Part shown: positions 51,001-52,508 of the stretch, piece after piece
Position numbering within the stretch: the stretch's first letter is position 1
How the letters are laid out: each line of letters begins with the position of its first letter
Source of the DNA: Pseudovirgaria hyperparasitica
Lineage: Eukaryota; Ascomycota; Dothideomycetes; Acrospermales; Acrospermaceae
Length of the DNA stretch: 64,000 nt
Assembly: GCF_010093815.1 (NCBI RefSeq)
Contig: NW_022985563.1
Span: 65,446 to 129,445, forward strand
Direction: 5' to 3'
Notes under the pieces: model-generated
Seen by the model: the letters and a program-made list of their open reading frames with translations, nothing else
Told to the model about the DNA's origin: nothing
Databases searched by the model: none
Position numbers and translations under genes: made by a program

Positions 51001-52508
51001 ATGCTGATCCTCGTCGTTGGCGCCACTGGAAATCTAGGACAACTCCTCGCCCAAGCCGCCCTAGACCGTGGTCATCGTGTTCGAGCTCTCGGCCGCTCTC
51101 CTGACAAGCTATCAGCCTCACTCGCCACACAGCTCGAATCGTTCGTTCGCAGCGAGAATTACTATGATATCCCCGCGCTTGATCGCGCCTGCCACTCTGT
51201 TGATGCCATAATAGTCGCATACCAAGGTATTCCTACCCTTCAACTTGAAGGCCAACTACTCCTACTACGCAGCGCCGAAAGGGCTGGTGTGAAACGATTC
51301 GTCAGCACAAGCTGGAACTATGACTGGCGAAACACGAGCTTAGGGCAGCAAGATAGCTACGATGCGTATATATCATTCCGGCGGCATGTAGAGCTCTCTT
51401 CGAGCATCAAGCCGATATACATCTTCACAGGTGTGCTCGCTGAGGTTCTGTTCTCTGTGGACGGGCATGGGGATTTCTCGCCGAGGAATCATGGCGTGTG
51501 GGATCCCGTGGCGAAGAGCATTGCGATGTATGGGACTGGCGAGGAGACATGGCCAGACTTCGGCACATACAATCCGAATCCATGCAAGCTCAATCTGCTC
51601 AAATATTCTAATAGAGAATACAAGCTCAATCTACGCCTCAAAAATGATTGCCAAGACAGTACAATCTTAATCCGATTAGTCAGATTGCTTGTATTAGATT
51701 GAATATGTGGGGTGTATATATATTAATCGATTTTAGTAAGGTTCTAGTAGTAAGTTTCTTATATATACGTGACTCTATAAACTAAGGGAGGTTATCTACG
51801 CGGAGACGTGTAACTTAAGGCCCTACATATACTTATATTAGTTAAATATTAGTTAAATATATACCTAATAACGTCATGACTTAGCTACTTAGTCTCCCTA
51901 TCTCCTTCCTAATCGGGTAATCTTATATAATATAAGCGATTCAATTTAACATAAGCAATCTCAATCCCTTGGCTTAGATTCCAAGCTCAATCCGTAATTT
52001 TAGGGTGACTAATCATACAATCCTAATCTAGGCCCTCGGATTGTATCCGATTGTATATGCCGAAGTCTGGACATGGCATTGGACGACGGAGAGCGATGCC
52101 GCGGAGTTGACGCTTGAGATTCTGGGAACGGAGGGTGTTGAAGAGGGTGGGTTCTGGACGGTGTATTCCGGAGAACATACACTGCCGCAGATCGCGACTA
52201 TCTACGAACAAGTCCGAGGTACAAAGGTCACCATTGACCGCTTGGGCAGTGTGGAGGATTTGAGACGTACTGCGCTTGAAGCAAGAGCTGCTGGGAATCC
52301 ACAGAACTATTGGGAGTACATTGGATACCTATATCAGCTGTACACTTTGGATCGGACGTGGACGTTAGGAAATGCCGACTACGAAAAGATTCCGAATTTC
52401 AAGCCAACAACTTTGGAGGATTCCTTGGTCGTAACCCGAAAGTATAACGGACTAACTTCAGTTGAGTTCTTCCATGTGCAAGAATCTCTCTTGACCCGCA
52501 TTCCGTGA
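51001..52508 (+). CDS. NmrA-like NAD(P)-binding protein, split by a transposon
   Basis: NmrA-type Rossmann-fold protein with the N-terminal dinucleotide-binding motif VVGATGNLGQLLA (about 5-17). ATG at 51001. The host reading frame runs 51001-51553, then a 516-bp hAT-type element intervenes (51554-52069), and the frame resumes at about 52078 and ends at 52508. Leaving out the element and one target-duplication copy gives a continuous 327-codon frame that reads GTGEETWHWTTESDAAELTL across the junction, as expected for this family. Both halves are otherwise free of stops. Read straight through, the first half ends in a stop inside the element at 51700-51702 (234 aa), which would remove the C-terminal half. 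Possible splicing of the insert is discussed in the findings. It may be a NmrA-like isoflavone-reductase type redox sensor or reductase; the substrate is unknown. Confidence 0.85.
51546..51553 (+). repeat. Target-site duplication, left copy
   Basis: The 8 bases GACATGGC immediately precede the element and recur exactly at 52070-52077. An 8-bp duplication is the hallmark of hAT insertions. Confidence 0.9.
51554..52069 (+). mobile_element. Non-autonomous hAT-type MITE (516 bp)
   Basis: Plain DNA transposon without coding capacity. The ends are inverted repeats: both start CAGACTTCGGCA and match at 22 of 24 positions (left 51554-51577; right, read inward from 52069). An 8-bp duplication GACATGGC flanks it. 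Subterminal regions on both sides carry many CAATC/GATTG copies (for example near 51571, 51588, 51624, 51661, 51683 and, on the right, 51957, 51987, 52018, 52040 and 52050), like the transposase-binding repeats of hAT elements. The central 250 bp are TA-rich and non-coding. No second copy is seen in this window. An autonomous hAT elsewhere in the genome must have moved it. Confidence 0.88.
52070..52077 (+). repeat. Target-site duplication, right copy
   Basis: Second exact copy of GACATGGC, directly after the element. Together with the left copy it fixes the element's boundaries to the base. Confidence 0.9.

Follow-up and report, generated by a model that had tools for sequence, protein, structure and literature searches.

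The window, by which we mean the whole 64,000-nucleotide stretch of Pseudovirgaria hyperparasitica DNA that was analysed, carries an NmrA-like, oxidoreductase-like gene that is split by an insert of 516 bp with a GC content of 0.35 (Table 1). The first 24 bases of the insert agree with the reverse complement of its last 24 at 22 positions, and with the flanks counted in, the inverted arms stretch to 41 nt at 80% identity. On either side lies the 8-mer GACATGGC, a perfect duplication (8/8); both the inverted ends and the duplication had been described in an earlier note on this DNA, and the description proved exact to the base. The whole window contains 1257 pairs of identical 8-mers spaced 100-1000 bp apart; with inverted ends defined as inversion of the bases just inside the pair at 9 or more of 12 positions, the GACATGGC pair, which scores 12/12, is the sole pair that has them.

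Table 1. Features of the interrupted gene and its insert, in window coordinates.
Feature	Position	Strand	Remarks
NmrA-like gene, 5' part	51001..51553	+	184 whole codons and first base of interrupted codon
Target-site duplication, left copy GACATGGC	51546..51553	.	
Non-autonomous hAT element (MITE), 516 bp	51554..52069	+	from ends, duplication, copies and long relatives
Left terminal inverted repeat	51554..51577	+	24 positions compared, 22 match
MITE part matching left end of C8 long hAT	51554..51849	+	element bases 1-296, 75% identity
Stop codon within element, terminating 5' reading frame	51700..51702	+	
MITE part matching right end of C8 long hAT	51831..52069	+	element bases 278-516, 81% identity
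Right terminal inverted repeat	52046..52069	-	
Target-site duplication, right copy GACATGGC	52070..52077	.	
NmrA-like gene, 3' part	52078..52508	+	last two bases of interrupted codon, 142 codons, stop

The 5' half of the gene (51001-51552, 184 codons) matches NmrA (PF05368) with an E-value of 5.4e-17 and a score of 62.8 bits, above the curated cut-off of 27. The 3' half (52080-52505) matched no Pfam family at E 0.1; it is tied to the NmrA-like gene by a paralogue on contig C17, a 333-aa open frame without the insert, which runs uninterrupted across the joint. To this paralogue the 5' half aligns at residues 24-211 (52% identity) and the 3' half at residues 213-327 (28% identity), so that exactly one residue falls between them, as the joint codon, CAT, predicts. 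The earlier placement of the insertion within an NmrA-like gene thus holds, with the domain identified from the 5' half alone, as does the claim that the two halves have one frame in common once 524 bp are removed. With the insert present, the 5' frame goes 49 codons into the element before it stops, giving a frame of 233 aa (184 from the gene and 49 from the element), and we infer that gene function was lost through the insertion.

A full-length protein could still be produced were the element spliced from the transcript like an intron, and the gene halves do keep 326 whole codons with no stop or frameshift in either of them. A young insertion would, however, leave the halves intact as well: when substitutions alone were simulated, neither half acquired a stop in 48% of runs at 2% divergence, a share that fell to 5% at 8% divergence. 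A search of the stretch 51451-52250 for donors GTRNGH and acceptors YAG gave a single frame-keeping candidate over the site, which is 752 nt long, with a poor donor (GTGGGA) and no branch-site match. Intron-like removal was rejected as very improbable, there being no credible frame-restoring intron among these candidates; the suggestion in the earlier note that the product is still made is also not supported, given the stop codon inside the element. The same note had taken the lack of other damage to mean that the insertion is recent; the lack of damage stands, but the simulated rates indicate that intact halves say little on age.

The ends of the element are present in more than one copy. A DNA search of the same genome (35.0 Mb, 59 contigs) with the element returned at least 62 matches, 40 of the 63 candidates being scored, and these gave at least 40 related places, window included, of which eight pair up as the opposite ends of four long elements; all 39 non-window places align with the element. 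Nineteen copies, the window copy among them, have both ends close together, and 14 of the 19 have 8/8 duplications. The duplication is 7/8 in L042 and 6/8 in L028, in L048 it reaches 8/8 only once shifted by one base, and L018 and L024 have none (1/8 in L024). When left and right flanks were mismatched as a control, 0 of 342 pairs reached 8/8 and two reached 6. The ends fall into two main groups, CAGACTTCGGCA, to which the window copy belongs, and CAGAGATGGGCA/CAGACGTGAGCA. The right flanks of L018 and L019 match over 67 bp at 95.5%, and L023 resembles L035 in its left flank; with flanks in common, each pair may be segmental copies that held the element already, not separate insertions.

Matches to the hAT dimer domain (PF05699) were found at eight places in the genome, each match with at least one stop. 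On contigs C26, C8, C10 and C25 the domain and the aligned right end of the MITE's family are 150-210 bp apart, and a fifth match falls inside the span on C3; the MITE was assigned the strand on which its right end corresponds to the one adjoining the transposase C-terminus in these long relatives. On C8, a left end at 1341432 and a right end at 1315883 both carry the window's terminal inverted repeat and have the common duplication CTGGTAGA (8/8), and the dimer domain of this longer relative scores 36.7 bits (cut-off 21.4) in a match that contains stops. The ends at C10:596781 and 677745 likewise have a common duplication, CGTGTAGA (8/8); those on C3, near 372974 and at 458418, are flanked by GTTACACC and GTCACACC (7/8), and those on C25 by TATATATC and TGCACACC (4/8), where all four differences are, by inspection, of the C-to-T or G-to-A kind. 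On C8, C10, C3 and C25 the region between the ends contains transposase pieces arranged in order. Alignments of the MITE to the C8 long hAT cover its left 296 bp and its right 239 bp with an overlap of 19 bp: the MITE consists of the two ends of such an element, joined by internal deletion.

The earlier note had proposed looking for an autonomous hAT with the same ends, and this was realised in part: the long relatives have those ends and PF05699, but the genome yielded no copy that combined both ends with a full, uninterrupted transposase frame. At C55:1-2974 (L088, L023), a stop-free transposase frame of 347 aa adjoins a left end that belongs to the second group and shows no RIP signs; the copy is cut off by the contig end, inside the element. 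This piece, incomplete at the contig end, gave no Pfam or PDB match, and it is assigned to hAT by a 74% alignment with C26, where the dimer domain comes next. Among the 12 matches to the frame in the genome, C55 itself and a 56-residue fragment on C39 are the only stop-free ones, and the C55 copy is a candidate for a recently working hAT element. Places on C36, C38 and C39 that were matched by a C26 fragment have a different neighbouring repeat, not the hAT, in common and were discarded.

The long hAT copies are the outer shell of RIP-mutated nested islands, which was unexpected; for C10 and C3 this comes from samples. The C8 span (C8:1315883-1341432; L051, L061, L062, L020) measures 25.5 kb and is strongly RIP-like inside and normal outside. 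Inside it the hAT is broken into three pieces (about 1.07, 2.09 and 0.41 kb) by two oppositely oriented copies of a repeat of about 5.3 kb, and one of these copies is itself split by an 11.4-kb LTR element whose 375-bp LTRs are 95% identical. Subtraction of the nested repeats leaves about 3.5 kb for the hAT itself; the 8.8-kb span on C25 (C25:39601-48425), less one 5.3-kb repeat (5.3 kb aligned, reaching the edge of the stretch examined), gives about the same size. Parts of the nested elements of C8, the 5.3-kb repeat and the 11.4-kb LTR element, recur on C25, C3 and C10. Samples from the 81-kb span C10:596781-677745 are RIP-like in 8 of 9 cases, with one reading N, and those from the 85-kb span C3:372974-458418 in 8 of 10, with two reading N. 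Immediately beyond the C8 span, a frame of 586 aa gave no Pfam match. Within the window, positions 1-900 are AT-rich (GC 0.31, TA/AT 1.41, low CpA/TpG) and resemble the edge of a RIP-mutated island.

Left and right ends with a common duplication span 25.5 kb on C8 (8/8), 81 kb on C10 (8/8) and 85 kb on C3 (7/8), and could also be read as the termini of giant, cargo-carrying, hAT-ended transposons 25-85 kb long, of which the MITE would be a remnant. We consider such parents highly unlikely, and dropped them once the C8 span had been resolved into a hAT of about 3.5 kb, two copies of the 5.3-kb repeat and the 11.4-kb LTR element. Stop-to-stop frames of at least 120 codons number just two in the C8 span (132 and 162), and in the readable samples from C10 and C3 the longest open frame has 188 codons and the others 89 or fewer. 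For C10 and C3 the giant reading is rejected from the samples, RIP-like or reading N, and from the order of the transposase pieces. If the parents are instead ordinary hATs of about 3.5 kb, their single insertions may have seeded the large RIP-mutated islands, with later elements piling up inside the hAT. We offer this tentatively, as possible rather than probable; in all four islands (8.8, 25.5, 81 and 85 kb) the boundaries still fall at the ends of the hAT itself, with two duplications of 8/8, one of 7/8 and that of C25 at 4/8. If it were general, hAT ends would mark the origin of gene-poor, AT-rich islands, and growth of the islands could be ordered layer by layer.

The hAT superfamily is described as having an 8-bp duplication and terminal inverted repeats of 5-27 bp (PMC12506042). 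The window copy has such a duplication and short repeats (22/24 positions), with the similarity going somewhat further at lower identity. It is also short, multicopy and non-autonomous, its non-coding status being judged from its length and the list of reading frames, and it has its ends in common with a coding element, as is usual for a MITE. The element itself encodes nothing that names its superfamily, yet 14 of the 19 two-ended copies have 8-bp duplications and longer elements with the same ends contain a hAT dimer domain, which makes a MITE from another superfamily, for example Mutator (9-bp duplications) or Tc1/mariner (TA), scarcely conceivable. The duplications, the ends and the longer relatives with the dimer domain uphold the hAT type proposed in the earlier note, and we regard it as almost certain that the insert is a non-autonomous hAT MITE that breaks the NmrA-like gene.

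As an element, the insert is a further example of a well-known kind and is ordinary in type: it has the same 8-bp duplications as MITEs of the hAT superfamily, short terminal repeats beginning CA and an internal-deletion relation to a dimer-domain hAT, with no structural difference from them. A text search of the literature for the letters of its terminal repeat gave no related sequence, a search that would miss sequences not printed in papers. The hATs described from Pyrenophora tritici-repentis (PMC3538342) are similar in being fungal, dimer-domain elements that occur as a long form, probably autonomous, and as a shorter one derived by deletion; there, the long form is 5.6 kb and the short form, at 2.3 kb, is still coding, and genes have been captured (histone H3-like), whereas here the long form measures about 3.5 kb, the short one 516 bp, and gene capture was not observed. 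The hAT-like elements reported from Fusarium poae measure 2.5-4.2 kb, with terminal repeats of 19-30 bp where given (PMC4994206); the size of about 3.5 kb deduced here lies within their range, the likeness being one of size. For Mycosphaerella graminicola, one of 13 MITE families is described with an 8-9-bp duplication, and MITEs are said to be more frequent in gene-rich DNA, with nested LTR elements in gene-poor DNA (PMC4522978). Both features are like those of the system studied here; in that account, however, the DNA transposon families proper yielded neither a terminal repeat nor a duplication, whereas here there are long relatives with the same ends. ToxhAT, or ToxTA, is likewise a fungal element with terminal inverted repeats, once linked with a hAT-like gene and found in repeat-rich, partly RIP-affected islands; it is described with 74-bp repeats and a TA duplication, and its authors took it out of hAT (PMC6737239; PMC12506042). 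The short 24-bp ends and 8-bp duplications of the window element differ from these in both repeat length and type of duplication, and membership of ToxhAT/ToxTA as so described was rejected.

The age of the insertion was considered from its nearest relatives. Three 462-bp copies (L025, L026 and L027, on C15, C13 and C5) are 99.4-99.8% identical, each with its own 8/8 duplication, and mark a recent burst of movement in a related sister subfamily; two more 462-bp copies differ from L025 mostly by C-to-T and G-to-A (13 of 17 and 14 of 18 changes). The nearest relatives of the window copy are L017 (92.7%), L018 (92.1%) and L019 (92.9%, partial), and with identities of 92-93% its own lineage shows no fresh burst. 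The active hAT family claimed by the earlier note therefore fits the sister subfamily, but less so the window copy: the family is plausibly active, a description that cannot yet be extended to this particular copy. In a three-way comparison of the window copy, L017 and L018, a change was counted as private to one copy if the remaining pair had the same base. Of the 10 private changes in the window copy, one is a C-to-T in CpA context (on either strand), as against ten of the 24 in L017; L018 has 25, of which twelve are A-to-G or T-to-C. Little RIP of its own fits a late insertion of the window copy; the L018 figures leave room for older RIP common to the window copy and L017, and private-change counts give no date for the insertion.

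The MITE is thus an internal-deletion product of a hAT of about 3.5 kb, and this 516-bp non-autonomous element has inserted in codon 185 of the gene, which is predicted to encode an NmrA-like NAD(P)-binding protein, has duplicated 8 bp of the target and has truncated the predicted protein. Mobilisation was most likely in trans, through cut and paste with an 8-bp staggered cut by a transposase of the parent hAT family, and we infer that the insertion was late relative to the hAT family as a whole. The locus offers a clean, base-exact disruption of a gene by a non-autonomous hAT in a genome strongly marked by RIP-like mutation, with the parent family found in the same genome. The RIP-like changes, together with gene content and genome size, point to a fungus. 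It also exposes a contrast within one family: short copies have sharp duplications, one of them within a gene, whereas long copies are RIP-mutated and filled with nested elements.

Open runs touching the edge of the element were measured in 790-bp flanks of the 19 copies with both ends. The runs at the window copy are 210 and 145 codons; the next-longest are those of L048 (97 and 196 codons) and then L033 (122 and 69 codons). L048 (C7:778203-778575) may represent another insertion that hit a gene or landed next to one.
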